From Nonlabens xylanidelens (GTDB taxonomy: Bacteria > Bacteroidota > Bacteroidia > Flavobacteriales > Flavobacteriaceae), in assembly GCF_002934445.1 (NCBI RefSeq), contig NZ_PTJE01000006.1, positions 1 to 64,000 of the forward strand: DNA of 64,000 nt. The letters run 5' to 3'. The number at the start of each line of letters is the position of its first letter. The stretch's first letter is position 1. This document shows, in pieces, positions 4,546 through 61,512 of the stretch. Below the pieces are notes generated by a model, which was given only the letters and a program-made list of their open reading frames with translations, searched no databases and was not told the origin of the DNA. The translations under genes and the position numbers were made by a program.

Positions 4546-4563
4546 CCGCTTTCGCGAAAGCGG
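4546..4563. repeat. dispersed 16-bp palindrome, copy 1 (intergenic)
   Basis: Exact core CGCTTTCGCGAAAGCG at 4547-4562, with one further symmetrical pair. It lies 23 bp after the queD stop. It has no T-tract, so it does not look like an intrinsic terminator. It belongs to a family of 15 copies in this window. Confidence 0.9.
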
Positions 4564-4644
4564 ACTAATTATCAAGAATTTAAAAGTGAAAAAGCAGATA
4601 GTTACTATTACGATTCTATGCTATCGTGTAACTCTTTTATTCAC

Positions 4645-4652
4645 TATTTTTG
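4645..4652 (+). promoter_or_regulatory. -7 promoter element for the 87-residue protein gene
   Basis: TATTTTTG matches the Bacteroidota -7 consensus and lies 17 bp before the ATG at 4670. No clear -33 TTG is seen. Confidence 0.45.
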
Positions 4653-4669
4653 CAACAAATTAAATTATT

Positions 4670-4933
4670 ATGGCAAGTATAAAAAATCTTAAGCAAGACA
4701 TCAATTACGTATTAGGAGATATCATAGAAGCAGCACTTATCACTCAGGCATTAAGCCCAGAGAAAACTGCAGAGTCTGAAAAGATCGTTGATGATTCTAT
4801 CGAAGTATTTGACGGTTTAATCGCTAGAGTAAACGACCGCAAAGTAGAAAACCGTAAGGCTCATCTTACTGCAGTACGTTCTGACTTAGAAACTCAAGGA
4901 AAAGGACTTATCGATAGAGTTAACGCTCTATAA
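4670..4933 (+). CDS. conserved small protein of unknown function (87 aa)
   Basis: A short, charged, predicted all-helical soluble protein (starts MASIKNLKQDINYVLGD) with no signal peptide, membrane segment or cysteine. It has a good -7 box and AT-rich leader just upstream, and codon use like its neighbours, so it is very probably a real gene. I do not recognise a named family. Its 3' end overlaps the converging lipoprotein gene by 6 bp, so there is no room for a terminator between them. Confidence 0.7.
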   Translation: MASIKNLKQDINYVLGDIIEAALITQALSPEKTAESEKIVDDSIEVFDGLIARVNDRKVENRKAHLTAVRSDLETQGKGLIDRVNAL

Positions 4934-5638
4934 ATTATCCTTAGCGTTATTTATTAATTCAGACAGTTGTTTTCCATAAACAGTTGTCTGAATTTTTTTT
5001 GGCATACTTCTATACACGCTATCTAGTAAAATAGGATTTGCCTCACTAGCCTCACTTACTAGTAAATATGGGGCCACCACTTTATCATTATGTAATTGTG
5101 CATAATTAATAGCGTGTAACACCTTTTTTCTTAAGTACCTGTCATAGGCAGTATTGATAGAATCTGTCACTGCTAGAGTTCTAGTCTCATCAGTAAGAGA
5201 CATACTTCTTTTTACTAGATCGGTATAAACCACATTTAGTTTTTTACTATTTTTTAAATAAGTAGCATAAATATCTTGATTTTTAGAACCGCTAAAAGCA
5301 GCGTCGTTTACAAAATTATCCCAGGTAGAATTCATGGTCATTGTTGTGTCCTCTGCAAAGAACAAAAGACGGTCATTAAACTCAGTTCCATCCTTTACAT
5401 CTAGATGTAGGTACATGATTTCTGGTTGACTTAATGATGTTTTAAGGTAAAAATCAGATTCTCCATCAAAAACTACAGAGTCTACATTTACCAGAGTTGA
5501 ATCTTGTAAACGTTGTAAGAATATTTTTCCGACCTTAATTCCATCTACAGTTCCAGAAATAGAAAAGTTGCTAGAGTTAGAATCACTACAAGATGCTATA
5601 AGAGTAATAGCGATAAGAAGGAAGAATACTTTTTTCAT
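4928..5638 (-). CDS. DUF4369-type lipoprotein
   Basis: The 236-residue product begins with a lipoprotein signal (MKKVFFLLIAITLIASC, lipid-attached Cys17). Residues about 25-125 have the beta-rich pattern NFSISGTVDGIKVGKIFLQRL...DSVVFDGESDF typical of the DUF4369 domain, which in Bacteroidota usually precedes a thioredoxin-like TlpA/ResA domain. Here the C-terminal half is helical and has no CxxC thioredoxin motif, so it is the domain alone. Location is probably the periplasmic face of a membrane. The gene stands between a converging unknown gene and DUF819, 59 bp away on the same strand. Confidence 0.75.
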   Translation of the reverse strand: MKKVFFLLIAITLIASCSDSNSSNFSISGTVDGIKVGKIFLQRLQDSTLVNVDSVVFDGESDFYLKTSLSQPEIMYLHLDVKDGTEFNDRLLFFAEDTTMTMNSTWDNFVNDAAFSGSKNQDIYATYLKNSKKLNVVYTDLVKRSMSLTDETRTLAVTDSINTAYDRYLRKKVLHAINYAQLHNDKVVAPYLLVSEASEANPILLDSVYRSMPKKIQTTVYGKQLSELINNAKDNL

Positions 5639-5697
5639 GGTAAGTTTTTAATGGCTGCAAATATGCATTATAAGTTTTAATTATGATAATAATCCTA

Positions 5698-7026
5698 CTA
5701 TGAAGTAGCGACCATTTGCATTAAAATGGTACAACCTATAGCGCCTATCGTACCCACTACATAACCAAAAACGGCAAGCAAAACACCAACACTTGTTAAT
5801 GATGGATGAAACTCTGCCGCAACTATAGGAGCGCTGGCAGCGCCACCCACATTTGCTTGCGAGCCTACGGCTAGAAAGAAGTAAGGAGATTTGGTAAGTT
5901 TTGCCATTAAAATAAGAAGTCCTGCATGAATAGCCATCCATATAATTCCTACTAGAATAAGTAATGGATTTTCTACTATTTGAGTCAGGTCCATTTTCAT
6001 ACCTATTGTAGCTACTAGGACATAAATAAAAATACTACCTATTTTACTAGCACCTGTACCTTCATAACTTTTGGCAGGCGTAAATGACAGTCCTATACCT
6101 ATTAAAGTAGAGATAGAGATCATCCAGAAAAACTGACTAGTTAAGAAACTCAAAAAGATGTTTTTTGCAATACCATCCATGCTCTTCATTAATTCAGATA
6201 AGTAGTTTGCTCCAAAATGTGCTACTGCTACAGCACCAAAGCCTATCCCTAACATGACCATCTTATCTGTAAAAGTAGCCTCGCGCTTTACACTTTCTGT
6301 ATATTTTGAAACTCTATTTTTTAGATCTTCAATAGACTTACTATTTGCACCGAACCATTTATCTATTTTGGCAGCTTTTGCAATACCGAATAACAATATT
6401 CCCATCCATAAGTTAGCCACCACTATATCTACTAGAACCATACCTCCATATTTAGATTGGTTAAATTGATACACCTCTAACATAGCAGTTTGATTTGCGC
6501 CACCACCTATCCAGCTACCGGCAAGCGTAGAAAGGCCACGCCATGCAGCGTCAAAACCTTCTCCACCTACAGTCTCCGGAGAAAAAGAGCCAACTATTAA
6601 AATAGCGAGAGGTCCACCGATAACGATTCCTATTGTTCCAGTTAAAAACATGATTAATGCCTTAGGACCCAGATTAAATACAGCTTTTAAATCTATAGAC
6701 AGTGTCATTAACACTAACGCTGCTGGCAATAAATAGCGAGAGGCCATGAAGTATAAACTAGAACTTTCTTCTACTATTTTACCGTCTTTAACAATTTCCC
6801 AAGGCTCGCCAGAAATGACTCCTAATGAACTTAAAATAGAAGGCAATAAATAACACATCAATAAAGCTGGCACTATTTTATAAAACTTAGACCAGAATCC
6901 TTTTTCTAATGAAGAAGAATAAAAGACTAAGGCTAGACACATCATTAATAAACCAAAAACAATTTTGTCATCGGTAATCATAGGTGGTAATACCTCGATA
7001 GTAGGTTCTATAAATGAAAAAGCCAT
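5698..7026 (-). CDS. DUF819 family integral membrane protein
   Basis: A 442-residue protein with about 10-12 hydrophobic segments and the DUF819 (YjcL-like) pattern: an N-terminal hairpin (DDKIVFGLLMMCLALVFY), the conserved glycine-rich GSWIGGGANQTAM motif at about residues 170-180, and QANVGGAASAPIVAA near the C-terminus. The duplicated glycine/asparagine motifs suggest an inverted-repeat transporter fold, but the substrate is unknown. It sits between two minus-strand genes, with a dispersed palindrome in the upstream gap. Length is normal for the family. Confidence 0.85.
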   Translation of the reverse strand: MAFSFIEPTIEVLPPMITDDKIVFGLLMMCLALVFYSSSLEKGFWSKFYKIVPALLMCYLLPSILSSLGVISGEPWEIVKDGKIVEESSSLYFMASRYLLPAALVLMTLSIDLKAVFNLGPKALIMFLTGTIGIVIGGPLAILIVGSFSPETVGGEGFDAAWRGLSTLAGSWIGGGANQTAMLEVYQFNQSKYGGMVLVDIVVANLWMGILLFGIAKAAKIDKWFGANSKSIEDLKNRVSKYTESVKREATFTDKMVMLGIGFGAVAVAHFGANYLSELMKSMDGIAKNIFLSFLTSQFFWMISISTLIGIGLSFTPAKSYEGTGASKIGSIFIYVLVATIGMKMDLTQIVENPLLILVGIIWMAIHAGLLILMAKLTKSPYFFLAVGSQANVGGAASAPIVAAEFHPSLTSVGVLLAVFGYVVGTIGAIGCTILMQMVATS

Positions 7027-7085
7027 AAAATCATATTTTGAATAGCTGCAAAATACGACTTTATAAGAAGTTGTTTAGGGTAGTT

Positions 7086-7103
7086 TCGCTTTCGCGAAAG
7101 CGA
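7086..7103. repeat. dispersed 16-bp palindrome, copy 2 (intergenic)
   Basis: Exact core at 7087-7102 with one extra symmetrical pair. It lies between two minus-strand genes, 26 bp downstream of the hydrolase stop. Confidence 0.9.
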
Positions 7104-7129
7104 TATATGGAATTATTTTATATTAAAAA

Positions 7130-8080
7130 CTATTTTACAAATGCTGTAATTAGTTCTAACAGTCTTTGATTTAATGGGAAGTTGGGGTTTATGTAGCTTT
7201 TAGAAGCTTCTATCTCATCATTTCCCACGGTCTTAAGAACATGGTTCATGTTTTCTATAATCTCAAATGTAGCAGTAGGTGCGGCGTCTTTTAAAAGTTG
7301 CGCTTCGGTAGCATCTACCTGCCTATTCTTACTGCCGTTAACAATAAGAACAGGAGCAGAGATGTTTTTTAACTCTGTTGCAGGATCATATTGCATCCAT
7401 GATTTCATGAAGGGCTGCACCTGTGGACCTATAATAACATAAAGATCGCGTTCTATGTCTACTACCGGTTTTTCAGATTTCTTTACTCTTTCAAAGGTCT
7501 CTGCAGCTACCTTATCTAGACCAGGCTGTTGTTGTGCTATTTGTTGTACAATAACGTTATCAATAGATTGTCCTGCACCGTTAATGGATATAATTCCATC
7601 AACATTTTTATCTACAGCAAGCATGGCTACAAGAGATCCCTGACCGTGTCCGGCTAGATATATTTTAGAAAATCTACGGTCGTTTTTGAAAAAATAAACA
7701 GACTCTTTTGCGTCTATTATAAAATCACTGAATAATGTCTTATCACTAGGTTTGCGATTTTTTATTTGGGTTAAGATACGCTTGTCATATCTATAAGTAG
7801 CAATACCTCGAGTAAGTAAAGAATCTGCAAGTTGTAAATAAGCGTTGCTCTTTGTTCTACGTTCATTACCATTGCGATCTACAGCACCTTGATCGCCTAT
7901 GATGATGACCAGCGGTACTTTTTCATAAGTATCTGGTGTGAGTAATGTTCCTTGAATATTTTTATTAATATTTACCTCAGTAAGATCTTCGGTAGGTTTT
8001 TGTGCATTTTTTTTAGAAAAAGCATCTTGCGCTATAGTCACAAGAGGTAAAAGAAGTAAAAGGAATAATGACTTTTTCAT
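7130..8080 (-). CDS. secreted alpha/beta hydrolase-fold protein with a Gly in place of the nucleophile
   Basis: A signal peptide (residues 1-17, ending TIAQ) precedes an alpha/beta-hydrolase domain. The strand before the nucleophile elbow, KIYLAGHGQGSLVAM, has the usual GHSxG shape, but the serine position (residue 146, codon GGT at 7643-7645) is glycine. The acid (in NGSKNRQVDA) and histidine (in NMNHVLK) of a triad remain. A single A-to-G change would turn an AGT serine codon into this GGT. The protein may be inactive, use another residue, or have a binding role. The gene is single, on the minus strand, with no obvious functional neighbour. Its usual relatives are serine esterases/acyl hydrolases of the periplasm. 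Confidence 0.85.
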   Translation of the reverse strand: MKKSLFLLLLLPLVTIAQDAFSKKNAQKPTEDLTEVNINKNIQGTLLTPDTYEKVPLVIIIGDQGAVDRNGNERRTKSNAYLQLADSLLTRGIATYRYDKRILTQIKNRKPSDKTLFSDFIIDAKESVYFFKNDRRFSKIYLAGHGQGSLVAMLAVDKNVDGIISINGAGQSIDNVIVQQIAQQQPGLDKVAAETFERVKKSEKPVVDIERDLYVIIGPQVQPFMKSWMQYDPATELKNISAPVLIVNGSKNRQVDATEAQLLKDAAPTATFEIIENMNHVLKTVGNDEIEASKSYINPNFPLNQRLLELITAFVK

Positions 8081-8160
8081 GATTTGGCTGTTCTCTATTA
8101 ATAACGTCCAAATCTAGGCAATAGGTATGCCATTACATATATTCTATTAAAAAAATCTAA

Positions 8161-8460
8161 TTATCGTTTTGCAATCTTATTACCAGTACTACGCTGCATA
8201 CTACATTTAAAACGACTCATTTCTGGATCTCGCTGGGCACGGTGTTTAGTCGCACGACCTTGCACACGCTGGCGCCACATTCTAAAACTGCTTTCCTTCA
8301 TCTCACTGCGCATGATCATGATCACTTCTTTTTCTGTCACGCCGAATTGTGCCTCGATCGCATCAAATGGTGTGCGATCTTCCCAGCCCATTTCTATAAT
8401 GCGGTCTATCTGACGATCGTTTAAATTTGCTAAAATGTCTTTTGCTCTAGTTCTTGCCAT
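8161..8460 (-). CDS. TIGR03643 / DUF2805 family protein
   Basis: A 99-residue basic protein of the TIGR03643/DUF2805 family. The N-terminal part (LNDRQIDRIIEMGWEDRTPF) and the following helices (AIEAQFGVTEKEVIMIMR) look like a helix-turn-helix-type DNA-binding unit, followed by FRMWRQRVQGR. The function is not established. The length is normal. No lipoprotein or membrane signal is present. Confidence 0.85.
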   Translation of the reverse strand: MARTRAKDILANLNDRQIDRIIEMGWEDRTPFDAIEAQFGVTEKEVIMIMRSEMKESSFRMWRQRVQGRATKHRAQRDPEMSRFKCSMQRSTGNKIAKR

Positions 8461-8588
8461 AAAATTAAAGTCGTTAAAATTTCTAATAATTACAGATTGT
8501 ATTTAACTAAAAGCTGTTTTATTATCGATTTAACAGATTACAGAAATTGCCATAATTCTCGCGATGTTTTATGATGAGACTCTAATAA

Positions 8589-9212
8589 TTATTTTACCAC
8601 GTTTCTAAATGTAAGATTGATGCGTAGACCTACCTTTCTTTTAGTTTTAGCAATCTGATGTTTATAAGTATGCTGCGTTTGTTTTTCCATTATAAGCAGG
8701 CTACCATTTGCTAGAGGGAATTTAAAACGCCAGTCTTTGTTCACATTATGTTTTAGGTGAAAAAATCGTTCTTGTCCTAGACTTACAGAGGCGATAGTAG
8801 GGTTAGTGCCTAGTTCTTTTTCATTATCTGCATGCCAGCCGTTAGAATCCTGACCATTACGGTATTGATTTATGAGACATACATTAAAGGTGGTGCCGGC
8901 TGCTTGCTCCACATCTGCTTTAATCTGTTTCAATGTGTCTGTCCATGGTAATGCTTTGAATTCTATACCGCTGTATCCATAGGCGATATCTGCATCTCCA
9001 TATAATTGGGTTAATCTTGGCTCGTCATGTGTTTTACCGAATAGCTGTATTTTATTTTGTCGCCACGGTGTTTCAGTTAATAAAGTGTTTTTTAAAAGTT
9101 CCGCTTTCGCGAAAGCGTAAAAAGAACCATCATAACGCACCGATGCATCTGGAATCTCGGGAAAAGTATCTGAAAACAACTTGTTATGCATGCATATAAA
9201 AAACAGGTTCAA
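8589..9212 (-). CDS. AlkB-like alpha-ketoglutarate-dependent dioxygenase
   Basis: A 2-oxoglutarate/Fe(II) dioxygenase of the AlkB family, which removes alkyl groups from nucleic acid bases. Visible residues are the iron-binding HxD in NGWHADNE, the distal histidine in HTYKHQIAKT and the 2-oxoglutarate arginines in GLRINLTFR. The usual start is probably the second Met (residue 8, MHNKLFSD, base 9191), because the first seven residues are an uncharacteristic hydrophobic extension. Residues about 31-37 (AFAKAEL) are encoded by a copy of the dispersed palindrome. The gene is divergent from the ketosynthase gene 54 bp away. Family members act on DNA or RNA; which one is not shown. Confidence 0.88.
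   Translation of the reverse strand: MNLFFICMHNKLFSDTFPEIPDASVRYDGSFYAFAKAELLKNTLLTETPWRQNKIQLFGKTHDEPRLTQLYGDADIAYGYSGIEFKALPWTDTLKQIKADVEQAAGTTFNVCLINQYRNGQDSNGWHADNEKELGTNPTIASVSLGQERFFHLKHNVNKDWRFKFPLANGSLLIMEKQTQHTYKHQIAKTKRKVGLRINLTFRNVVK
9101..9118. repeat. dispersed 16-bp palindrome, copy 3 (inside the AlkB-like gene)
   Basis: Exact core at 9102-9117, read in the gene as Ala-Phe-Ala-Lys-Ala-Glu. Confidence 0.9.
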
Positions 9213-9266
9213 ACTAGCAAGATAATGAGACTGTCACGTATCTTGCGAAAGATTTAAAACAAATTT

Positions 9267-10274
9267 ATGTATACTTCTCGCATAGCCGGAATGGGGAAAT
9301 TTGTCCCTGAAAATGTGGTTACTAACGATGATCTTTCTAAAGTAATGGATACTAACGATGCCTGGATACAGGAACGTACTGGAATCCAAGAACGTCGTCA
9401 CATTAAGAAAGGCGATGGAAATTCTACAGCTACCATGGGTGTTAAAGCTGCAGAAATAGCTCTAGAAAGAGCAAAAATATCTAAGGACGACATTGACATG
9501 ATCGTGTTTGCAACCCTATCTCCAGATTATTATTTTCCTGGTTGTGGTGTGCAAGTACAAGAAATGATGGGTATTCATACCTGTCCAGCTCTGGATGTAA
9601 GAAACCAGTGTAGTGGTTTTATTTATGGACTGTCTGTTGCAGACCAGTTTATTAAAACAGGAATGTATAAAAATGTACTCGTAATAGGATCTGAGAATCA
9701 CAGTGGTGGTTTAGATTTTTCTACACGTGGCCGTGGTGTGACGGTAATATTTGGAGATGGAGCAGGAGCAGCAGTTCTTACCAGATCAGAAAATGAAGGT
9801 CAGGGTATCCTTTCTACCCACTTACATAGTGAGGGAAAACATGCACTAGAATTATCTCTTAAAGGACCATCTACTATGCACTGGGTCCCTCAATTAATTG
9901 AGGAGAATCCGCAAGAAGATATTCCTTATTATCCTTATATGAATGGTCAGTTTGTATTTAAAAATGCAGTGAGACGTTTTAGTGAGGTGATTATGGAAGG
10001 CCTTCAAAAAAATAATCTAGAAGTAGGTGATATAGATATGCTTGTGCCACACCAGGCTAACTTGCGTATATCTCAATTCATACAGAAGAAATTCCAATTA
10101 ACAGACGATAAAGTCTATAACAATATCCAGAAATACGGTAACACTACAGCTGCATCTATTCCTATCGCTCTTTGTGAGGCATGGGAAGAAGGTAAGGTAA
10201 AAGAGGGTGATACGGTGGTTCTTGCTGCTTTCGGTAGTGGGTTTACTTGGGGTAGTGCTATTATTAAATGGTAA
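9267..10274 (+). CDS. fabH: 3-oxoacyl-ACP synthase III family protein
   Basis: A thiolase-fold ketosynthase of the FabH type, which condenses acyl-CoA with malonyl-ACP. The catalytic triad is visible: Cys in VRNQCSGFIYG, His in LVPHQANLRI, and Asn in YGNTTAAS. The C-terminal GSGFTWGSAIIKW is also typical. The length of 335 aa is normal. It is not in the plsX-rpmF setting usual for the housekeeping fabH, so it may be a second paralogue with a different starter preference; the gene symbol should be read as the family. Just 3' of the stop a 44-bp palindrome begins. Confidence 0.88.
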   Translation: MYTSRIAGMGKFVPENVVTNDDLSKVMDTNDAWIQERTGIQERRHIKKGDGNSTATMGVKAAEIALERAKISKDDIDMIVFATLSPDYYFPGCGVQVQEMMGIHTCPALDVRNQCSGFIYGLSVADQFIKTGMYKNVLVIGSENHSGGLDFSTRGRGVTVIFGDGAGAAVLTRSENEGQGILSTHLHSEGKHALELSLKGPSTMHWVPQLIEENPQEDIPYYPYMNGQFVFKNAVRRFSEVIMEGLQKNNLEVGDIDMLVPHQANLRISQFIQKKFQLTDDKVYNNIQKYGNTTAASIPIALCEAWEEGKVKEGDTVVLAAFGSGFTWGSAIIKW

Positions 10275-10318
10275 CAACATCTATAGGTGCGGACTTAAGT
10301 CCGCACCTATAGATGTTG
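10275..10318. repeat. REP-type perfect palindrome, left copy (44 bp)
   Basis: Perfectly symmetrical about a central CTTAAG. The inner 28 bp (half-site ATAGGTGCGGACTT) are shared with the copy at 10756-10791; the outer arms differ. It begins 1 bp after the ketosynthase stop and ends 22 bp before the transposase gene. Confidence 0.9.
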
Positions 10319-10340
10319 AGCAAATTGATTATTTTTAAAG

Positions 10341-10745
10341 ATGTCCAAAAATAATCTTCAAGTTTATATTCACATTGTATTTTGTACAAAGAATCGAGGT
10401 GTGTTAATTTCTGATACAATAGAGAAAAAGTTATACCCATTTATCTGGTCTGTTATAGAAGATAATGATTGTACTCCTTTAATGATTAATGGTATGCCAG
10501 ACCATGTCCATATATTATTAAAAATGGACTCAAAAGTTTCATTATCTGATTTGATGAGATTCATTAAAGGTAAAAGCTCTAGATTCCTTAATGAGAATTA
10601 CTCGTTTTTAAACGGCTTTGAATGGCAGCGCGGCTATGGTGCGTTTTCTGTTAGCTCAAGTCAGGTATCTCAGGTCGCAGATTATGTTAAAAATCAAAAG
10701 CATCATCATGTGGAAGGTTTTATTATTGAAAATATCGAGCTTTAA
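10341..10745 (+). CDS. REP-associated tyrosine transposase (IS200/Y1 family)
   Basis: A 134-residue Y1 HUH nuclease/transposase. The metal-binding histidine pair is in PDHVHILL (His55, His57) and the probable nucleophile is Tyr115 in VADYVKNQKHHH. The N-terminal VYIHIVFCTKNR and the WQRGYGAFSVS segments are typical of this family. The length and all active-site residues look intact. It is flanked by two palindromes sharing a core, which makes the RAYT subgroup more likely than a plain IS200. A GTG/ATG choice is not an issue: ATG at 10341 gives the standard N-terminus. Confidence 0.92.
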   Translation: MSKNNLQVYIHIVFCTKNRGVLISDTIEKKLYPFIWSVIEDNDCTPLMINGMPDHVHILLKMDSKVSLSDLMRFIKGKSSRFLNENYSFLNGFEWQRGYGAFSVSSSQVSQVADYVKNQKHHHVEGFIIENIEL

Positions 10746-10755
10746 ACCATGTTTC

Positions 10756-10791
10756 ATTCATAGGTGCGGACTTAAGTCCGCACCTATGAAT
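10756..10791. repeat. REP-type perfect palindrome, right copy (36 bp)
   Basis: Perfectly symmetrical, with the same 28-bp centre as the copy at 10275-10318 but with different outer arms (ATTC/GAAT). It starts 10 bp after the transposase stop. Confidence 0.9.
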
Positions 10792-10809
10792 AGAAATGAT
10801 ATAAATACA

Positions 10810-10837
10810 AAATCCCGAGCCTGCAAGCTCGGGATTT
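10810..10837. terminator. GC-rich stem-loop after the RAYT unit
   Basis: AAATCCCGAGC and GCTCGGGATTT form an 11-bp perfect stem with a short loop. It may be a terminator or the right end structure of the mobile unit. The remaining DNA to 11046 shows no gene. Confidence 0.55.
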
Positions 10838-11046
10838 CTAAATCGTATAATAACACTAACCATTAATTATGAATTATACGATTATGTGTGTCTTTTAAAT
10901 TTAAGTCTTAAACGTAAAAGACATTAACCTTTGAATTCTTCTTTTTCAATAAAATTCAATTAACCAAATAAATCAGAAGGGTTTATCACGTCCTTCATAA
11001 TAAAAGACGATCTATTTTGTATATTGTTACATATTAAATCATAAAA

Positions 11047-11409: not shown

Positions 11410-12862
11410 CTTTTTGATTACTAAATGCCGATGCGATTAATAAACCTAAAAAGGTGATGAAACCATTGAGCAATAGTATAAAGAAACCAAATTCAAACCC
11501 AAAGTAATAATCAGCGGCGGTGCTTAATGCATAGGCTATGAATGGCGATGCAATAGCAATAAACGGAATAAGTCTATGGTTGACTTGAAGCTTTGTCAGT
11601 ATCCCAAATCCAAATAATCCCAATAAAGGACCATAGGTATATCCAGCAAAAACAAAAAGTTTTGTAATCACACTTGCATCTTTAATGATATATTCAAAAC
11701 TCACGATGACAAGTATGAGTAGAATGGAAAAAGCAACGTGAACGAGTTTGCGCATCCAGCTTTGTTTTTTCTTATCATAGTTTTTTTCTAATCGTAATAT
11801 ATCTACAGAGAACGATGTGGTGAGTGAAGTAAGTGCGCTGTCTGCACTAGAGTATGCTGCGGCAACCAGCCCTAGAATAAAAACGAGTCCTATACCTATT
11901 CCCATGCCGCTTTGTACGGATATACAAGCAAATAAACTGTCTTTGTAGCCACCTGTTAATTCCGCTTTTGCAAAAGCGGTAAGCAAAACACCTAATCCTA
12001 AGAATAACAAGTTCACAAAAGTCAACACAATAGTAAACCAAAACATGTTTTTTTGAGCATCTTTAAGGCTGCGACAGGTCAAGTTTTTTTGCATCATATC
12101 TTGATCCAGTCCTGTCATTACAATAGCAATAAAAGCACCTGATAAAAACTGTTTAACAAAATGCTGACCACTTTTCCAGTCGTCAAAAAAGAAGATTTGC
12201 GATAAATCACTATCTGCTATAAAGCCAGTAATCTCACCGATACCATTGAGGTTAAGACTGTCTGAAATGTAGTAAATACCGACACCTACGGCTATTAACA
12301 TAAACAAAGTCTGTAGTGTGTCTGTCCAGACTATGGTTTTGATTCCAGATTTAAAAGTGTACAACCAGATAAGAATGACGGTAAGGGTAACCGTTTGCCA
12401 AAACTCCACACCCATACTTTCAAACACAAATTCTTGCAACACACCAGCAACCAGATATAATCTAAAACTAGCACCTACCACACGAGAAAGTATGAAGAAG
12501 CTAGAACCGGTAAATTGAGCAGCACTTCCATATCTATCGTTGAGGTAACTGTAAATAGAAGTGAGGTTCATTTTATAATAAAGTGGTAATAGCACAGTAC
12601 CTATGACTAAATAACCGACTACATAACCCAGTACTACTTGAAAGTAATTCATGGCACCTTCTTCTACCGCACCAGGAACTGAGATAAAGGTCACACCACT
12701 AAGCGATGCACCTATCATCCCAAAAGCGACAATAAACCAAGGCGATGATCGATTACCTCTAAAGAAAGTGGCATTATCACTTTTACGACCAACAATAAAT
12801 GAGATAGCAACAAGTACTGCAAAGTAACAAGCTATGGTAATAAGTATTTGAGTAGAAGTCAA
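11384..12862 (-). CDS. sodium:solute symporter (SSS family)
   Basis: A 492-residue inner-membrane transporter with about 13 hydrophobic helices. It has the SSS features of an early GASLSGVTFISVPG stretch, the conserved RLYLVAGVLQE region and a Na+-site segment with AAAYSSADSALTSL. The start is TTG at 12860-12862. The substrate (sugar, amino acid or organic acid) cannot be assigned from sequence. A degenerate copy of the dispersed palindrome encodes the AFAKAEL loop after the ninth or so helix. The 3' end overlaps the CoA-binding gene by 26 bp on the opposite strand. Confidence 0.88.
   Translation of the reverse strand: MTSTQILITIACYFAVLVAISFIVGRKSDNATFFRGNRSSPWFIVAFGMIGASLSGVTFISVPGAVEEGAMNYFQVVLGYVVGYLVIGTVLLPLYYKMNLTSIYSYLNDRYGSAAQFTGSSFFILSRVVGASFRLYLVAGVLQEFVFESMGVEFWQTVTLTVILIWLYTFKSGIKTIVWTDTLQTLFMLIAVGVGIYYISDSLNLNGIGEITGFIADSDLSQIFFFDDWKSGQHFVKQFLSGAFIAIVMTGLDQDMMQKNLTCRSLKDAQKNMFWFTIVLTFVNLLFLGLGVLLTAFAKAELTGGYKDSLFACISVQSGMGIGIGLVFILGLVAAAYSSADSALTSLTTSFSVDILRLEKNYDKKKQSWMRKLVHVAFSILLILVIVSFEYIIKDASVITKLFVFAGYTYGPLLGLFGFGILTKLQVNHRLIPFIAIASPFIAYALSTAADYYFGFEFGFFILLLNGFITFLGLLIASAFSNQKVSIDVSPA
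11962..11979. repeat. dispersed palindrome, copy 4 (degenerate, inside the symporter gene)
   Basis: CGCTTTTGCAAAAGCG at 11963-11978 differs from the core at two symmetric positions, so it is still a perfect palindrome. It is read as AFAKAE, as in the AlkB-like gene. Confidence 0.7.
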
Positions 12863-12947
12863 GACTTTTAATTTTTAATGCTAAGGTAAGAAGGTTCAAG
12901 TTCAAACTTAAATCTAAATCTAAATTGAAAATAAAAACTGATGTCAG

Positions 12948-13026: not shown

Positions 13027-13033
13027 AAATTTT

Positions 13034-13255: not shown

Positions 13256-13301
13256 AAACCTAGATAGATGTCTTAATTTCTGAAATTACTTTTTAGTTTT
13301 G

Positions 13302-14835: not shown

Positions 14836-14870
14836 GACTTGTTTTTATGTGATGTTGATGGTGTTGATCT

Positions 14871-14886
14871 CGCTTTCGCGAAAGCG
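14871..14886. repeat. dispersed 16-bp palindrome, copy 5 (intergenic)
   Basis: Exact core between cysS and folE, about 100 bp downstream of the folE stop (minus strand). Confidence 0.9.
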
Positions 14887-14984
14887 GAATCTCAATACTA
14901 ATTATTCTCAAAAATAACCGTAAATATCTAATAGAGCTTAATTGCTAGTTTAGATTTTAAATTTATTCTAAGTAAATGGGTAAT

Positions 14985-20538: not shown

Positions 20539-20560
20539 TTCCGCTTTCGCGAAAGCGGAA
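20539..20560. repeat. dispersed palindrome, copy 6 (longest, 22 bp symmetrical)
   Basis: Core CGCTTTCGCGAAAGCG at 20542-20557 with three more symmetric pairs (TTC/GAA) outside. This is the fullest form of the motif in the window. Confidence 0.95.
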
Positions 20561-25623: not shown

Positions 25624-25641
25624 CCGTTTTCGCGAAAGCGA
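25624..25641. repeat. dispersed palindrome, copy 7 (one mismatch, intergenic)
   Basis: CGTTTTCGCGAAAGCG at 25625-25640, one base from the core, 35 bp beyond the rpsT terminator. Confidence 0.85.
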
Positions 25642-28591: not shown

Positions 28592-28610
28592 TTCCGCTTT
28601 CGCGAAAGCG
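28592..28610. repeat. dispersed 16-bp palindrome, copy 8 (intergenic)
   Basis: Exact core at 28595-28610 in the gap between the era stop and the sigma-factor start (both minus), just past the era terminator. Confidence 0.9.
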
Positions 28611-34872: not shown

Positions 34873-34891
34873 TCCGCTTTCGCGAAAGCGG
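34873..34891. repeat. dispersed 16-bp palindrome, copy 9 (intergenic)
   Basis: Exact core at 34875-34890, starting 14 bp after the stop of the barrel gene. The rest of the 280-bp gap to 35141 is AT-rich and shows no gene. Confidence 0.9.
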
Positions 34892-40639: not shown

Positions 40640-40655
40640 CGCTTTCGCGAAAGCG
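40640..40655. repeat. dispersed 16-bp palindrome, copy 10 (intergenic)
   Basis: Exact core in the 226-bp gap, just past the rho terminator (minus strand). Confidence 0.9.
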
Positions 40656-43148: not shown

Positions 43149-43164
43149 CGCTTTCGCGAAAGCG
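43149..43164. repeat. dispersed 16-bp palindrome, copy 11 (intergenic)
   Basis: Exact core, 24 bp past the T-run of the DUF4293 terminator and 100 bp before the response-regulator gene. Confidence 0.9.
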
Positions 43165-49010: not shown

Positions 49011-50789
49011 ATGGCATCTACAACAGGTAATGCATTTAACATGTCTCTTTTTAGAAGACTACTTTCTTATACTAAGCCTTATAAGCTTACTTTTTACTTT
49101 GTAGCGTTAAGTGCAATTCTCATTGCAGTAGTTGCTATAGGAATGCCTTATTTAATAAAGGTTTCCATAGATGAGCATATCATACCTCGTCAGTTTGACG
49201 GTTTTACAACTGTTATAGGCATGATGACAGCCGTTCTAATTATAGACGTTTTACTACAGCTCAGCTTTATTTATTATGCAAACTGGTTGGGACAGCAGGT
49301 GATAAGAGATTTACGTGTAAAACTCTTTACTCACATGATGGGCTTTAAGATGCAGTATTTTGATAAAAGTGCTGTAGGTAAATTAGTTACTAGAGCGGTG
49401 AGTGATATAGAAACTATAGCGAGTATTTTTTCTCAAGGATTGTTTGTCATCATTTCTGATTTGTTGAAAATGGTCGTTGTTCTTGGTTTCATGGCCTATT
49501 CTAGTTGGAAACTGACCTTAATAGCGTTAATAGTCATGCCTTTTATATTGTATGCCACTCGTGTATTTCAAAAAGCTATGAAAGTTGCTTTTGAAGAAGT
49601 GCGTACTCAAGTAAGTAATTTGAACTCTTTTGTGCAAGAACGTGTTACTGGTATGAAAATCGTACAAATCTTCAATCGTGAAAAGGTAGAGTACGAGCAG
49701 TTTAAAGAGATTAATGATAAGCATAGAAATGCGTGGGTAAAAACGGTATGGTACAACTCTATTTTCTTTCCTATTGCAGAGATGGCTTCGAGTATAACAA
49801 TCGGTTTGATTGTTTATATAGGAGTAGTCATGAATCTAGGTGCAGAGGCTACAACTATGGCTGTAGAAATAGGTACTATCGTCATGTTCATTGATCTATC
49901 ACAAAAATTATTTAGACCATTGCGCCAGATAGCAGATAAGTTTAACACGCTACAAATGGGAATGGTAGCGGCAAATCGTGTTTTTGCTATTCTAGATACA
50001 GAATCTCAAATAGAAGATCAAGGAGATCTAGTGGCTGCGCATCTTAAAGGTGATATAGAGTTTAAAAATGTAGACTTTAGCTATGTAGATAACGAGCTCG
50101 TTTTAAAGAACCTTAGTTTTAAAGTTGCCTCTGGTGAGACCGTTGCCATTGTTGGTGCTACTGGTGCAGGAAAATCTACCATCATCAACCTTCTTTCTCG
50201 TTTTTATGAAATTAATAGTGGAGAGATTTTGATAGATTCCGCTTCCGCGAAAGCGTACCAGTTATCATCTCTTAGATCACAAATAGCTGTGGTGCTACAA
50301 GACGTATTCTTGTTTGCAGATACTATTTTAAATAATATCACACTACAGAATCCAGATATAACAGAAGACGATGTCATCAAGGCAGCTCAAAAAATAGGGG
50401 TGCATGATTTTATAATGACCTTGCCTAATGGTTACCATTACAATGTTAAAGAAAGAGGAGTGATGCTTAGTTCTGGACAGCGACAGTTAATAGCATTTTT
50501 AAGAGCTTATGTTTCTAACCCAAGTATCTTAATTCTAGACGAGGCAACAAGCTCTGTAGACGCATACAGCGAGCAGTTGATACAAGATGCGACAGACATT
50601 ATAACTAAAGGACGTACTTCTATAGTAATCGCTCACAGACTTGCAACCATCAAAAAAGCAGATAAAATTATCGTGATGGATGCAGGAGAAATAGTAGAAA
50701 TAGGCTCGCATAGTGAGTTACTTCAAAAAGAAAATGGTTATTACAAGAATCTTTATGAAGTGCAGTTTTTACAACAAGAAGTGGCTTAG
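49011..50789 (+). CDS. ABC transporter, fused permease and ATPase (MsbA-like exporter)
   Basis: A 592-residue half-transporter with six membrane helices (about 25-320) followed by the ATPase: Walker A GATGAGKST, Q-loop VVLQDVFLF, signature LSSGQRQ, Walker B ILILDEATS, and switch His in VIAHRLA. The substrate may be a lipid or a peptide/drug. Between Walker A and the Q-loop, residues DSASAKAY are encoded by a copy of the dispersed palindrome without changing the usual spacing. The 3' end overlaps the converging DUF3667 gene by 4 bp. Confidence 0.93.
   Translation: MASTTGNAFNMSLFRRLLSYTKPYKLTFYFVALSAILIAVVAIGMPYLIKVSIDEHIIPRQFDGFTTVIGMMTAVLIIDVLLQLSFIYYANWLGQQVIRDLRVKLFTHMMGFKMQYFDKSAVGKLVTRAVSDIETIASIFSQGLFVIISDLLKMVVVLGFMAYSSWKLTLIALIVMPFILYATRVFQKAMKVAFEEVRTQVSNLNSFVQERVTGMKIVQIFNREKVEYEQFKEINDKHRNAWVKTVWYNSIFFPIAEMASSITIGLIVYIGVVMNLGAEATTMAVEIGTIVMFIDLSQKLFRPLRQIADKFNTLQMGMVAANRVFAILDTESQIEDQGDLVAAHLKGDIEFKNVDFSYVDNELVLKNLSFKVASGETVAIVGATGAGKSTIINLLSRFYEINSGEILIDSASAKAYQLSSLRSQIAVVLQDVFLFADTILNNITLQNPDITEDDVIKAAQKIGVHDFIMTLPNGYHYNVKERGVMLSSGQRQLIAFLRAYVSNPSILILDEATSSVDAYSEQLIQDATDIITKGRTSIVIAHRLATIKKADKIIVMDAGEIVEIGSHSELLQKENGYYKNLYEVQFLQQEVA
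50240..50255. repeat. dispersed palindrome, copy 12 (one mismatch, inside the ABC exporter gene)
   Basis: CGCTTCCGCGAAAGCG; read as Ala-Ser-Ala-Lys-Ala, the same frame as in the AlkB-like gene. Confidence 0.8.
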
Positions 50790-54083: not shown

Positions 54084-54914
54084 TTAATTTACCGTTAACT
54101 GGTTATACAACGCTATAGTTTCCATCGCTTCTTTAACATCGTGCACACGTAAAATTTTTGCGCCTTTCATTAAACACACCATGTTTAGGGCTGTTGTTCC
54201 ATTTAAAGATTCTTGTGCGGTGCTATCAAGGGTTTTGTAAATCATTGATTTACGAGATATTCCAGCTAGAATAGGTAGTCTGTGAGCTTTTAAAAGATCT
54301 AGGTCAGAGAGCAATTCAAAATTTTGTTGGGTAGATTTTGCAAAACCAAAACCTGGATCTATAATTAGGTCATTAATTCCGCAAGCTCTTGCAGCAGCAA
54401 CACGTTCAGAAAAATAACGATTTATTTCTACCACCATATTTTCATAATCGGTCATGGTTTTCATGCTTTGTGGAGTACCACGCATGTGCATCATGATGTA
54501 GGGGATTTTGGCTTTTCCCACAGTTTGTAACGTGTTTTCAGATAAAATACCAGCGCTTATATCGTTCACGATAGTCGCTCCGTGATTAATAGCCTTTTCT
54601 ATTACGCTTTCGCGAAAGCTGTCACAACTTAAACCTTTAATATCAAAACGAGCTGTTATCAAATCAAGAACTGGGAGAACTCGAGATAACTCTTCTTCTA
54701 CAGAGATGTCCGTACCATCTGGTCTGGAGCTGTAACCACCTACATCTATAAATGTAGCGCCAGCATCTAGCATGGTTTCTACTTGGTTTAAAATAGCAGC
54801 GTCATTTTTAAGCCTGCCGCCATCATAAAAAGAGTCTGGTGTGCAGTTCACAATACCCATGGTGTGAGGTGTAGAAAGGTCGATTAGTGTGCCCGTGCAA
54901 TTTATAGTCGCCAT
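54084..54914 (-). CDS. folP: dihydropteroate synthase
   Basis: A 276-residue TIM-barrel enzyme joining p-aminobenzoate to dihydropterin diphosphate. The signature GIVNCTPDSFYDGG and the pterin-binding motifs DPGFGFAKS and AGISRKSM are present. Residues DSFRESV, on the strand that normally reads D-[ST]-[FY], are encoded by a near-exact copy of the dispersed palindrome, so a conserved motif carries it. It is divergent from DUF1599-recR and is the first gene of the folP-cdaA-DUF3667 operon. Confidence 0.96.
   Translation of the reverse strand: MATINCTGTLIDLSTPHTMGIVNCTPDSFYDGGRLKNDAAILNQVETMLDAGATFIDVGGYSSRPDGTDISVEEELSRVLPVLDLITARFDIKGLSCDSFRESVIEKAINHGATIVNDISAGILSENTLQTVGKAKIPYIMMHMRGTPQSMKTMTDYENMVVEINRYFSERVAAARACGINDLIIDPGFGFAKSTQQNFELLSDLDLLKAHRLPILAGISRKSMIYKTLDSTAQESLNGTTALNMVCLMKGAKILRVHDVKEAMETIALYNQLTVN
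54605..54620. repeat. dispersed palindrome, copy 13 (one mismatch, inside folP)
   Basis: CGCTTTCGCGAAAGCT; read on the minus strand as Ser-Phe-Arg-Glu-Ser-Val, a different frame from the AFAKAE copies. Confidence 0.8.
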
Positions 54915-56120: not shown

Positions 56121-57212
56121 TTGCAATTATCCATAATCATACTTAATTATAACGCAGCAGCTTTTCTTGAGCTGTGTGTTTATAGTGTGATGCGAGCGGT
56201 TAAAAATCTAGATGCAGAGATTATTGTAGCCGATAATAATTCTACAGATCACAGCCTTGAGATGTTAGCCTCTATTTATGGTGATCGTATAAAAGTGATA
56301 GTACATAAAGAAAATCATGGTTTTTCTAAAGGGAATAACCTTGCTGTAGAACAGGCTATAGGAGAATATCTGTGCATTTTAAACCCAGATACGATAGTAG
56401 GAGAGAAGGTTTTTGAAGAGTGTTTAGCTTTCGCGAAAGCGGAACCCAAAGCAGGCTTTTTAGGAACCCAGCTTATAGATGGAACCGGCAAATATTTGCC
56501 AGAAAGTAAACGACATGTTCCTACACCTAAAGTCGCGAGACAAAAAATGCTGGGCAACGACAGTAATTATTACTTTAATGAAGTTGGTCAAAATGAAAGA
56601 GGCAAAGTAGATGTGCTAGTAGGAGCTTTTATGTTTTGTAAGAAAAGTGTTTATGAAGATTGCGGTGGTTTTGACGAGCGTTACTTTATGTATGGAGAGG
56701 ACATCGACTTAAGTTACACGGCACTTCAAAAAGGGTATGATAATTATTACCTAGGTGATCAAAAAGTGATTCATTTTAAAGGAGAAAGTACGGTGAAAGA
56801 TAAAGTCTATTTAAAAAGATTTTATGGAGCCATGGGGTTGTTTTACGATAAGTATTTTAAACAATCTACCTTAGAAAAAAAGGCAATTGACCTTTTAATA
56901 AGTAGTATGATAGTCATTAAAGGCACAAGAACGACCGAAACTGTCTTAGAAGAAAAAGAATTCATACTCGTTACCGAAGATCCTACGCTTAAAATACAAA
57001 ATGTAGTATCCTCAGCGTCTATAGAATTACTTGAATCTTGCAATACGCTGAATAAGAGTGTGCTTTGGGATTTGAGTTCTCTGAAATTTGAAGAAATGAT
57101 AAATTATATGTCTAAAAATACAGAAGGGACTTATAGATTTCTAAATCAGAATAAAACCTTCTATTTAGGCAGTGATAGCAGTAAATCACGTGGAATAATG
57201 AAAATTGTGTAA
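56121..57212 (+). CDS. family 2 glycosyltransferase
   Basis: A 363-residue GT-A enzyme, probably cell-surface-polysaccharide or lipid-linked. The start is TTG at 56121. Motifs: N-terminal LSIIILNYNAA, ILNPDTIV with the metal-binding Asp, the acceptor motif GGFDERYFMYGEDIDLSY, and a C-terminal extension without clear domains (about 230-363). Residues AFAKAEP are encoded by a dispersed palindrome with one mismatch. It follows recR by 3 bp, so it is likely in that transcript. Confidence 0.88.
   Translation: MQLSIIILNYNAAAFLELCVYSVMRAVKNLDAEIIVADNNSTDHSLEMLASIYGDRIKVIVHKENHGFSKGNNLAVEQAIGEYLCILNPDTIVGEKVFEECLAFAKAEPKAGFLGTQLIDGTGKYLPESKRHVPTPKVARQKMLGNDSNYYFNEVGQNERGKVDVLVGAFMFCKKSVYEDCGGFDERYFMYGEDIDLSYTALQKGYDNYYLGDQKVIHFKGESTVKDKVYLKRFYGAMGLFYDKYFKQSTLEKKAIDLLISSMIVIKGTRTTETVLEEKEFILVTEDPTLKIQNVVSSASIELLESCNTLNKSVLWDLSSLKFEEMINYMSKNTEGTYRFLNQNKTFYLGSDSSKSRGIMKIV
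56426..56441. repeat. dispersed palindrome, copy 14 (one mismatch, inside a glycosyltransferase gene)
   Basis: AGCTTTCGCGAAAGCG, read as Ala-Phe-Ala-Lys-Ala-Glu. Confidence 0.8.
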
Positions 57213-59877: not shown

Positions 59878-59885
59878 TACCTTTG
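59878..59885 (+). promoter_or_regulatory. -7 element of the 94-residue protein gene (leaderless-type)
   Basis: TACCTTTG, then CTGC and the ATG at 59890. No TTG is seen at the usual distance. Confidence 0.5.
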
Positions 59886-59889
59886 CTGC

Positions 59890-60174
59890 ATGGAAAAAGA
59901 TCTTTACTTACAGCAAATAGATTATTTTAAGGGAGCACAAGTTTTACATTACTTTGAATTTGTAGAGCCTCAAGAAATTAAAGACGAATATTTTGCTGTG
60001 CATGAAATTCATGCCGTAGTAATTTGTGATTATGAAGGAGAAGAAACTATGTTATTCTATTTAGATGATGGTCTAGAAGTAGCTTTAGAATTTGAATGTG
60101 TAATCCCTAAACAAGCTAAAGAACAAACAGCTCAGGATTTTGCTGGTATAGACATTCAGTGGAAAAATAAATAA
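59890..60174 (+). CDS. small acidic soluble protein of unknown function (94 aa)
   Basis: An acidic protein (starts MEKDLYLQQIDYFKGAQVLHY) without signal or membrane segment. A full -7 box lies 4 nt before the ATG, the composition fits coding DNA, and a strong terminator follows, so it is very probably a gene. No family recognised. Confidence 0.7.
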   Translation: MEKDLYLQQIDYFKGAQVLHYFEFVEPQEIKDEYFAVHEIHAVVICDYEGEETMLFYLDDGLEVALEFECVIPKQAKEQTAQDFAGIDIQWKNK

Positions 60175-60202
60175 AGTAAATTCCAACTAGAATTTTATAA
60201 AA

Positions 60203-60243
60203 AAAAAGGCTCTAAATATCAATTTGATATTTAGAGCCTTTTT
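60203..60243. terminator. bidirectional terminator
   Basis: A perfect 20-bp inverted repeat (beginning AAAAAGGCTCTAAATATC) around a single central T, with A- and T-runs on both sides. It serves the 94-residue gene and possibly the glycosyltransferase from the other side; about 120 bp to 60366 holds no gene. Confidence 0.9.
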
Positions 60244-60366
60244 AGATTCACTCAAAACCCCTAAGGTCCAAAAAAAACTCAATCAAGTTTTCTTTTTTTG
60301 TAATGTACCATAAGTCTCTGTTTTACCTTGACGATTTATTTAAAATCGGTAACCTTATTTTTAATC

Positions 60367-61512
60367 CTATCCGATGTTAAGATAGTGTTGTTGATATGCT
60401 CGCGCTATTTTAATACTGTCGTGATGGTCTAGAATATGTTTTCTAGCGGCCTTTCCCATTTCTAGAATATTTTGTGGGTTATCAATGAGAAGAGATAATT
60501 GATTCACTAAATAATCGACATCTGGTCTAGCATCCATAACAGGAACAGAGGCTAGATCATGCGCTTTTAAATAGATAGAACTACCGCCAGAAAAAACGAC
60601 TTTTCCCTGCGCCATAGCTTCTAGCGCATTGTAGCCTTGGTCATAACACAATACTTGATCTAGTAAAATATGAGCGTTTTTATATTTGGTAATATATTCT
60701 TGATAGGGTAGACTTACTGCTATCGTAATAAACACTTTATTACCGTATTTCTTCTTTATAATTTCTAGCGCTTCTTCAAAATAGTTGATTCCCTTTTTCC
60801 AATAATTACCTCTGTTGATTCCCATAAATATTTGAATTTGTGAGAGATCTGTATTTAATTCTAATTGAAATTTTGAATGGTTTATAGCTGCAGGAATTAT
60901 AGCTGTTGCCTTATCCTGCTGTTTTAAAGCCATCGCATAATCTACATTACTAGGTATTATTTTTTGAGACGCTTCTAGTACTTTATAATAATTATCTCGG
61001 TAACCGTTACCTAGATATTTATACGTGTGAAACAATTGCTGTTTTTGAAGATGTCCTCTGTGTACCGAGTCTAAAATATTGTAACCCTCATGTTCTTCTG
61101 TAAGAAATCGGGCATATTCGTAGTCGTCACCACAGGCTATTAAAAAGGACTTTTGATTATTTTTAATTAGAAAATCTAGCATGATACGTTCTACAGCCGG
61201 CTCGCACCCAAAAGGGTTGGAATTGATAAACTGTACGATATCGTAGTTTTTTAGATGGTTCTCGCTTTCGCGAAAGCGTGCTAATTTCAATCTATCTTCT
61301 AGGTTATAGCCTGTCAGTTTCCACCAGCCTACTTTTATTTTGCGATGTAGCCAGCTTTGTTCAAAATACGTACTACCTATTTCTATATCTACAGGGAAAC
61401 GCTTAAAACCATCACCATCGCCCACAATGTTTACTTCATGACCTAGCTGTTGCAGACCATGTTTTAAGGAATTATGAAAACCACTGTATTCACCTACGAG
61501 CAATATGCGCAT
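60367..61512 (-). CDS. glycosyltransferase family 4-like protein
   Basis: The frame is open to 61551, but the GT-B N-terminus MRILLVGEYSGFHNSLKHG begins at the ATG 61510-61512. The protein is about 381 residues. It has a GT-B-like arrangement: N-terminal LKHGLQQLGHEVNIVG and a C-terminal nucleotide-sugar segment with ILLDQVLCYDQGYNALEAMAQGKVVFSGG, typical of GT4. It probably belongs to the surface-polysaccharide region to its right. Residues RFRESEN are encoded by an exact dispersed palindrome. The gene is divergent from the next glycosyltransferase. Confidence 0.82.
   Translation of the reverse strand: MRILLVGEYSGFHNSLKHGLQQLGHEVNIVGDGDGFKRFPVDIEIGSTYFEQSWLHRKIKVGWWKLTGYNLEDRLKLARFRESENHLKNYDIVQFINSNPFGCEPAVERIMLDFLIKNNQKSFLIACGDDYEYARFLTEEHEGYNILDSVHRGHLQKQQLFHTYKYLGNGYRDNYYKVLEASQKIIPSNVDYAMALKQQDKATAIIPAAINHSKFQLELNTDLSQIQIFMGINRGNYWKKGINYFEEALEIIKKKYGNKVFITIAVSLPYQEYITKYKNAHILLDQVLCYDQGYNALEAMAQGKVVFSGGSSIYLKAHDLASVPVMDARPDVDYLVNQLSLLIDNPQNILEMGKAARKHILDHHDSIKIARAYQQHYLNIG
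61263..61278. repeat. dispersed 16-bp palindrome, copy 15 (inside a glycosyltransferase gene)
   Basis: Exact core, read on the minus strand as Arg-Phe-Arg-Glu-Ser, the frame also used in folP. Confidence 0.9.

Follow-up and report, generated by a model that had tools for sequence, protein, structure and literature searches.

Genome-wide self-recognition sequences are known from few lineages, and known uptake systems use a pilus machine. The uptake sequences of Pasteurellaceae (USS) and Neisseriaceae (DUS) share several traits with the motif described here, CGCTTTCGCGAAAGCG of Nonlabens xylanidelens: hundreds to thousands of copies, location both in and between genes and an intergenic excess. 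The motif differs from them in being a perfect 16-bp palindrome that is flanked on either side, in its spacing (about one copy per 4 kb versus about one per 1 kb) and in its host, a member of the Bacteroidota without a general pilus-type ATPase. Excerpts of PMC1939737 describe known uptake sequences as not palindromic and report that they are evenly spaced, one author considering this spacing not even enough for compaction. AT-rich flanking segments form part of the Haemophilus uptake motif (excerpt of PMC7811141).

HIP1 of cyanobacteria (GCGATCGC) is likewise a highly iterated perfect palindrome whose mismatches favour the outer bases, near-misses being concentrated at the first and last base (excerpt of PMC4390886); the motif is twice as long, has symmetric flanks and shows no excess of inner sub-words. 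Chi, the signal of RecBCD/AddAB, numbers 1,008 sites in 4.64 Mb of E. coli (excerpt of PMC1939737). The density of the motif is similar and its G/T-rich sequence lies on the strand that would carry RecA, but it is palindromic, long and regularly spaced. Finally, parS, Noc, MatP and SlmA sites are palindromic chromosome sites with tens of copies confined to regions. Compared with these and with matS, the motif has hundreds of copies, evenly spread and not confined to part of the chromosome.

Copies of the palindrome and their flanks

In the window, i.e. the whole stretch of 64,000 nucleotides analysed, the motif was found 15 times (10 exact, four one-mismatch and one two-mismatch copies; Table 1), as against a mean of 0.05 and a maximum of 1 in 100 dinucleotide shuffles. 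The coordinates and mismatch classes claimed in an earlier note were exact for every copy. Independent gene calls reproduced its split into nine intergenic and six genic copies, with the 3' end of at least one gene facing every intergenic copy. The genome-wide count that it had suggested as a check gave 579 exact copies, far above the control (reversed sequence, 0).

Table 1 Copies of the palindrome in the window, with one example of the full element (positions are those of the window)
Feature	Position	Context	Other species
exact copy	4547..4562	intergenic, 3' of PTPS-family gene	aligned and exact in G013 and G002
exact copy	7087..7102	intergenic, between two minus-strand genes	kept in 7/9 aligned species, lost in G009 and G005
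exact copy	9102..9117	5' part of 2OG-Fe(II) oxygenase gene	kept in 12/12 aligned species
two symmetric mismatches	11963..11978	inside sodium:solute symporter gene	exact in 6 other species, 3 mismatches in G013, lost in 5
exact copy	14871..14886	intergenic, cysS / GTP cyclohydrolase I gene	kept in 9/9 aligned species
full element, core plus 30 bp each side	14841..14916	flank profile of 217 copies	
exact copy	20542..20557	intergenic, convergent genes	aligned in G013
one-mismatch copy	25625..25640	intergenic	
exact copy	28595..28610	intergenic, adjoins gene with GTPase and KH domains (presumably Era-like)	
exact copy	34875..34890	intergenic	
exact copy	40640..40655	intergenic, adjoins rho	
exact copy	43149..43164	intergenic	
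one-mismatch copy	50240..50255	inside ABC transporter gene	
one-mismatch copy	54605..54620	inside pterin-binding enzyme gene	
one-mismatch copy	56426..56441	inside glycosyltransferase family 2 gene	exact in 5 aligned species, lost in G008 and G020
exact copy	61263..61278	inside gene with weak glycosyltransferase match (below cut-off)	

Copies are all-or-none, with a sharp mismatch spectrum: among 220 copies in 864 kb, 158 were exact, followed by 44, 15 and 3 with increasing mismatches, and then by chance level. Most near-misses (28/44) affected the first or last base of the palindrome.

Symmetric C-poor flanks extend about 30 bp on either side of the core and are common to genic (115) and intergenic (98) copies; this consensus is statistical, individual copies not matching it at every position. 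Whichever strand is read, the stretch on the 5' side of the core has little C and is rich in G and T. The 15 window copies had seemed one-sided (TTC on the left), but an oriented motif was dropped because the flanks proved symmetric in 464 kb. An extended hairpin, suggested by the complementary look of the G/T-rich left and A/C-rich right flanks, was also rejected, since pairing copy by copy scored 921 versus 965 with shuffled partners.

Spacing, placement and conservation

Over 864 kb, copies were spaced by 3.9 kb on average with a CV of 0.46, compared with 0.98 for random placement, and the largest gap was 9.8 kb; the window gave a mean of 4,051 bp and a CV of 0.41. Spacing was even with both tails cut in Nonlabens and in genome G242. 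Genome G226 has the motif, spaced without clear regularity (CV 0.80). C1 held 10-15 copies per 50 kb throughout 600 kb, and a 40-copy subset was uniform along the single-contig genome G020 (KS p=0.27). The earlier note had listed nucleoid organisation, uptake, repair and segregation as candidate functions; this uniformity disfavours a role confined to ori or ter.

Within 188 copies, 99 were genic and 89 intergenic for a coding fraction of 86-89%, i.e. an intergenic excess with no tie to gene ends. That intergenic copies always lie 3' of a stop codon, as the earlier note had it, holds for the nine in the window but is a small-sample effect, since 22 of the 89 intergenic copies in 864 kb lie between divergent genes where length alone predicts 23.2; tandem, divergent and convergent gaps showed no preference.

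Copy positions, whose conservation between species had also been proposed as a check, were kept in 38 of 47 aligned cases across 11 species, against 2,090 of 4,645 (45%) for control 16-mers. Unaligned gaps gave further cases: that of the 20542 copy was occupied in 8/8 further species having both anchors, and that of the 7087 copy held no copy in G017 and G020. The cysS / GTP cyclohydrolase I gap of G242 has a copy at another spot (L211:3218), while that of G226 has none. At the 11963 copy, the one locus considered in this respect, the alignment of species that lack it spans 15-20 bases and shows no unit-sized gap. In one species pair, identity dropped slightly away from copies, from 0.92 to 0.89 (15 copies), which is too weak to demonstrate recombination hotspots from that pair. 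A recognition site for a putative DNA-binding protein, as initially suggested, fits an element with such symmetry, whose genic and intergenic copies resemble each other and for the most part hold their position between species.

Taxonomic range and presence in phages

All 22 other Nonlabens genomes searched were rich in the motif (180-737 copies). Only two of 235 other Flavobacteriaceae genera sampled were motif-rich (3/236 including Nonlabens), and a phylum-wide draw of 394 other genomes included no rich one. Copies were clustered in the seven low-copy genomes inspected. The earlier note's mention of similar motifs in other Flavobacteria was borne out, in this sample, by two further rich genera and by low-copy genomes. 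In islands of genera otherwise without the motif, 21/46 copies were exact versus 158/220 in Nonlabens, as if upkeep depended on the host. Our literature search yielded no report of the 16-mer, and papers with the 10-mer were, by title, not on such bacteria; titles and abstract openings mentioned no such motif in Flavobacteria, nor competence or uptake sequences in Nonlabens.

In 23 phage contigs, the motif reached 0.13 copies/kb versus 0.20 on the chromosome (about 65% of chromosomal density). Among 35 loci with a related capsid, five near-identical ones have 3-4 copies and the other 30 none, distant relatives of one such phage being without the motif; phage P12024S has no copy with up to three mismatches in 35 kb. 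An excerpt of PMC2397512 reports few DUS in transferred regions of Neisseria, in contrast with the many copies held by phage contigs here. The phage/chromosome ratio is near that of Haemophilus uptake cores in the temperate phages HP1 and HP2 (17 found versus 25.9 and 25.2 expected), so that presence in phages was abandoned as an argument against an uptake sequence.

Possible roles of the element

We tentatively favour a DNA self-recognition sequence working like the uptake sequences of Haemophilus and Neisseria. The palindrome would be the core of a symmetric element of about 50-76 bp by which Nonlabens and two further genera label their DNA as 'own', and which a putative dimeric protein would read in double-stranded form. 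As the likeliest outcome, fragments with the element would be preferred during import and/or homologous recombination between kin. With an advantage for fragments that bear a perfect copy, copies could multiply and keep their perfection; another one near an existing copy would add little, which may explain the few neighbours under 1 kb, the lack of long empty stretches and the spacing of about 4 kb. ComEC, the inner-membrane DNA channel, was present in 6/6 motif-rich genomes, but its family also gave matches in 10/14 control genomes, so that its presence says little. The PilB/PilT/GspE-type ATPase (PF00437) was over cut-off in only one of six motif-rich genomes, the other five being without it; the pilus machine of known uptake systems is therefore not general among them. 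Spacing and conservation would fit an intracellular role too. A perfect, near-regular palindrome also found in phages of marine Flavobacteria would offer a new system for studying the reason for such sequences, be it uptake, repair, chromosome shape or pure drive. It could serve as a marker for tracing DNA that originated in Nonlabens or similar bacteria and moved elsewhere, and a 60-bp duplex of the element as bait for the putative DNA-binding protein.

Less likely, though possible, is a function in nucleoid or chromosome organisation, in which an abundant dimeric protein would bind about one site per 4 kb and space loops or domains over the entire chromosome, resident prophages conforming. 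Such a protein would account for the even spacing with both tails cut, the uniform distribution along one chromosome, the wide symmetric footprint and the presence of the motif in some phage contigs while P12024S has none. Nevertheless, hundreds of redundant sites should drift, yet 158/220 are perfect; richness in only 3/236 sampled genera is odd for a core chromosome function, and no regional bias was seen.

A Chi-like recombination or repair signal acting in both directions appears slightly more doubtful. Resection that starts from a break would change mode on reaching the palindrome, and RecA would be loaded immediately 5' of it on the 3'-ended strand, in the C-poor and G/T-rich sequence found there on both strands; RecA shows a base-triplet preference for G/T-rich DNA. 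A 3-base rhythm with one common phase was detected there in Nonlabens intergenic copies (p=0.037), in G242 (p=0.015, or 0.044 for intergenic copies alone) and, more weakly, in G226 (p=0.055, or 0.37 for its 7 intergenic copies alone), although these p-values are modest and ignore neighbour correlation. An AddB-sized PDDEXK_1 protein occurred in 12/12 genomes tested, equally in the six motif-poor ones, and a second, AddA-sized one in 9/12 (absent from G000, G002 and G009); size and domain suggest that they are AddAB. Known Chi sites are short and non-palindromic, unlike this palindrome with symmetric flanks, and those in one 50-kb piece of E. coli K-12 are irregular (14 sites, CV 1.18).

An unlikely further reading would make one palindromic element a two-way self-tag of Nonlabens DNA. 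A dimeric protein would bind it, RecA would be loaded at the 3-base-phased C-poor G/T tract 5' on each strand, and the site would protect own and resident phage DNA from degradation and direct exchange between kin. If true, the Bacteroidota would, to our knowledge, gain their first self-recognition signal of this genome-wide kind, which would also be the first to be palindromic.

A HIP1-like origin, in which a DNA methyltransferase and repair linked to it would leave the motif as a by-product, seems very improbable. High iteration and near-misses at the outer bases recall HIP1, but outside the element its inner words show no excess (TCGCGA 56 versus 84 and TTCGCGAA 0 versus 8.8 expected from base composition), and 14 positions plus flanks far exceed the length of a methyltransferase site.

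A terminator or RNA hairpin at 3' ends is scarcely credible as a general role: the 8-bp self-complementary core, the 3' location of the 9/9 intergenic window copies and the z values below -2 of two copies (-2.5 and -2.1, the other four -0.5 to -1.4) when six intergenic ones were folded as RNA together with 30 bp of flank per side are outweighed by the genic copies (99/188), the indifference to gap type, the flanks that do not pair copy by copy and are T-rich before and A-rich after the core, the reverse of a terminator, and the lack of overlap between the 18 terminator-like sites of window positions 1-20000 and the five copies there. The only Rfam match in the window was a tRNA. A REP or mobile palindrome fits poorly as well, such repeats being mostly extragenic, and the earlier note's view holds that copies lack a T-tract and that a terminator or a mobile repeat is a poor fit.

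The half-site CTTTCG was scarce outside the element (23 versus 159 expected from base composition). Its avoidance was not retained as linked to the motif, because TTCG is generally scarce throughout the genus Nonlabens and this accounts for it; in the other two motif-rich genera the TTCG shortage is mild.

Abundance and taxonomic range of the palindrome

A mismatch-tolerant scan of the window returned precisely the 15 positions that the earlier note had listed for the 16-bp palindrome, in the same classes (ten exact copies, four with one mismatch and one with two), compared with 0.05 copies in the shuffled window. The excess over chance claimed there extends to the whole N. xylanidelens genome (3.28 Mb, 21 contigs), in which we counted 579 exact 16-mers against 0 of the reversed control, as well as 664 copies of the inner 14-mer. 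It also extends to the relatives, since all 22 other Nonlabens genomes searched carry 180-737 exact copies; comparable counts were found in 0 of the 16 genomes of other genera or families in the same search.

The prolyl-tRNA synthetase encoded in the window shares 91 % identity with its counterpart in a Nonlabens dokdonensis isolate, on which basis we use the name Nonlabens for the genomes sorted into the window's genus. The inner 12-mer occurs 720 times in the genome of this isolate. In a family survey based on this word (299 genomes, 236 genera), the only rich genomes were three Nonlabens and those of two further genera, G226 (445 copies) and G242 (917); 73 others had 1-21 copies and 221 had none. 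A second sample (30 genomes with named loci out of 80) gave 720 copies in Nonlabens and 0-8 in the other 29 genomes. In a phylum-wide survey (395 genomes, 14-mer), N. xylanidelens was the sole rich genome, 21 others having 1-6 copies.

Form, spacing and candidate roles

Spacing, flanks and mismatches were analysed on 864 kb of N. xylanidelens (26 % of the genome), with genes predicted by our own hexamer gene caller and not taken from curated annotation. The spectrum comprised 158 exact copies and 44, 15 and 3 with one, two and three mismatches, followed by a chance tail (13, 71 and 553); 28 of the 44 single mismatches affected an outermost base. Symmetrised flanks of 217 copies were enriched in T (0.77 at -3, 0.74 at -9, 0.61 at -12) and G (0.38 at -14, 0.39 at -15) and poor in C (0.02-0.10 in 15 of the 16 positions from -3 to -18), with a weaker bias extending to -30. 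Flank G/T content followed a 3-base rhythm of common phase, with permutation p values of 0.037 for the intergenic copies of Nonlabens, 0.033 for other Nonlabens (not independent), 0.015 for G242 (0.044 for intergenic copies alone) and 0.055 for G226 (0.37 for its 7 intergenic copies). Flank profiles were alike for genic (115) and intergenic (98) copies. The element is wide, symmetric and alike inside and outside genes, a form that suggests recognition on double-stranded DNA by a putative dimer.

Of 188 exact 14-mers, 99 fell within genes and 89 between them; as 86-89 % of the sequence is coding, this is a roughly sevenfold intergenic excess. Intergenic copies followed length expectation in tandem (55; 53.0 expected), divergent (22; 23.2) and convergent (12; 12.8) regions. 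Mean spacing was 3,861 bp with a CV of 0.46, compared with a mean of 0.98 and a minimum of 0.80 in 1,000 random placements (1.02 and 0.80 when the placements reproduced the intergenic excess). Gaps below 1 kb made up 2.3 % versus 23 % expected, and none exceeded 9.8 kb. Spacing was clearly regular in Nonlabens and in G242 (54 copies in 180 kb, CV 0.56, random minimum 0.68), but not in G226 (36 copies in 200 kb, largest gap 21.9 kb), whose CV of 0.80 is one that random placement also gives (mean 0.96, minimum 0.63). A 40-copy subset was uniform along a single-contig Nonlabens genome (G020), and one 55-kb stretch of higher G+C in another was poor in exact copies.

We tentatively read the palindrome as a self-recognition sequence in gene exchange, working like the uptake sequences of Haemophilus and Neisseria, a reading we hold possible rather than probable. 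If a second copy on one transferred fragment brought nothing, regular spacing would result; in Neisseria, DUS spacing corresponds to the conversion-fragment length, according to an excerpt of PMC2397512. For Haemophilus, other authors have taken evenly spaced uptake sequences to point to replication, repair or compaction (excerpt of PMC1939737), so that spacing does not decide function. Chromosome organisation is, to us, a less likely but serious alternative. An all-or-none mismatch spectrum would be difficult to maintain if hundreds of redundant copies were each under weak selection, but would be expected from biased uptake or conversion. Palindromy counts against uptake, as does the rarity of a PilB/PilT/GspE-type ATPase, over the cut-off in one of six motif-rich genomes; ComEC was found in all six. 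A two-way recombination signal, also a serious alternative, is in our view slightly less likely still than chromosome organisation. An AddB-sized PDDEXK_1 protein is encoded in 12 of 12 genomes, motif-rich and motif-poor alike.

Conservation, islands and phages

All 15 window copies were in place in G013, a Nonlabens about 91 % identical, a comparison that says little because control 16-mers were kept almost as often (1,104 of 1,211). In 11 further Nonlabens, whose aligned parts are 68-77 % identical, we examined positional conservation between species, a check that the earlier note had proposed for the intergenic copies: of 47 copies that could be aligned, 38 were present (contiguous site, ≤3 mismatches) versus 2,090 of 4,645 nearby control 16-mers, the 47 cases representing eight window copies in related species, hence not independent, and copies in unaligned gaps being left out. 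The nine losses concerned copies 11963 (five), 7087 (two) and 56426 (two). At the 20542 locus, a copy lay within the unaligned gap in 8 of 8 further species with both anchors; the gap at 7087 contained none in the Nonlabens G017 and G020. The cysS-GTP cyclohydrolase gap held a copy at a different position in G242 and none in G226.

Stretches from seven low-copy genomes, picked because of clustered copies, contained 46 copies (≤3 mismatches), 21 of them exact. In three loci (L109, L111 and L114, from Winogradskyella ursingii, G114 and G251), 5 of 5 scanned proteins were metal-resistance proteins (RND efflux, multicopper oxidase, P-type ATPase). In these islands, belonging to genera otherwise without the motif, copies were clustered and partly decayed. 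A copy pair exactly 933 bp apart was common to six genomes and lay inside a TolC-like efflux gene in those compared; in our reading, its first copy may code for part of the signal peptide. As this pair is shared, motif islands have probably been transferred between genera, the closest parallel being Neisseria ICEs identified through atypical DUS distribution, one possibly Kingella-derived (excerpt of PMC7371117).

The exact 16-mer was found in 41 IMG/VR stretches on 30 contigs. The contigs include several phages, at least one of them apparently temperate, judging from scanned proteins such as a portal, an HK97-type capsid, a prohead protease and a tape measure (L187), a Mu-type portal and a terminase (L189) and an integrase (L174). 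Seven records with locus G+C >50 % had one 14-mer each; the remaining 23 had 68 in 517 kb, i.e. 0.13 per kb or 65 % of the chromosomal 0.20, a density biased upward by the choice of copy-bearing records and by near-duplicates among them. The yardstick was Haemophilus, whose genome length we take to be 1.83 Mb. With 1,465 chromosomal uptake cores (excerpt of PMC7811141), this length predicts 25.9 and 25.2 cores in phages HP1 and HP2, versus 17 observed in each. Among 35 related-capsid loci, five (99-100 % identical) had 3-4 copies each, and those at 46-58 % (24) and 21-29 % (6) identity had none. The Nonlabens phage P12024S, presumably lytic (integrase absent from the 57 features listed), had no copy with ≤3 mismatches in 35,000 bases.

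Accompanying observations

No Rfam match reached the gathering score in the window besides the tRNA-Glu.

Coordinates of features observed alongside the palindrome
Feature	Location	Remarks
tRNA-Glu gene	window 25167-25239	Rfam match at gathering score
Copy-poor stretch of Nonlabens G004 (L216-L218)	G004:C4:298001-353000	G+C 0.37-0.42; RHS-repeat, SbcC-like and secretin proteins encoded
Type II secretion/pilus-type ATPase	G000:C8:126205-127296 (N. xylanidelens)	one full-length match; absent from five other motif-rich genomes

Outside the palindrome, which itself contains TTCGCGAA, Nonlabens strongly avoids TTCG/CGAA in all three codon phases: the 4-mer stood at 0.38 of Markov expectation in the window and 864 kb and at 0.50 in intergenic sequence. 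In six motif-bearing phage loci it reached 0.43. It was not avoided in 79 loci of other Flavobacteriaceae and Bacteroidota MAGs (0.98) or in 24 related phage loci without the motif (0.90). TCCG, CCCG and TTGG were likewise low in Nonlabens. In G242 (L126-L128, L219-L224), CATG was almost completely avoided (0.11 of expectation), as might be expected for a restriction site.
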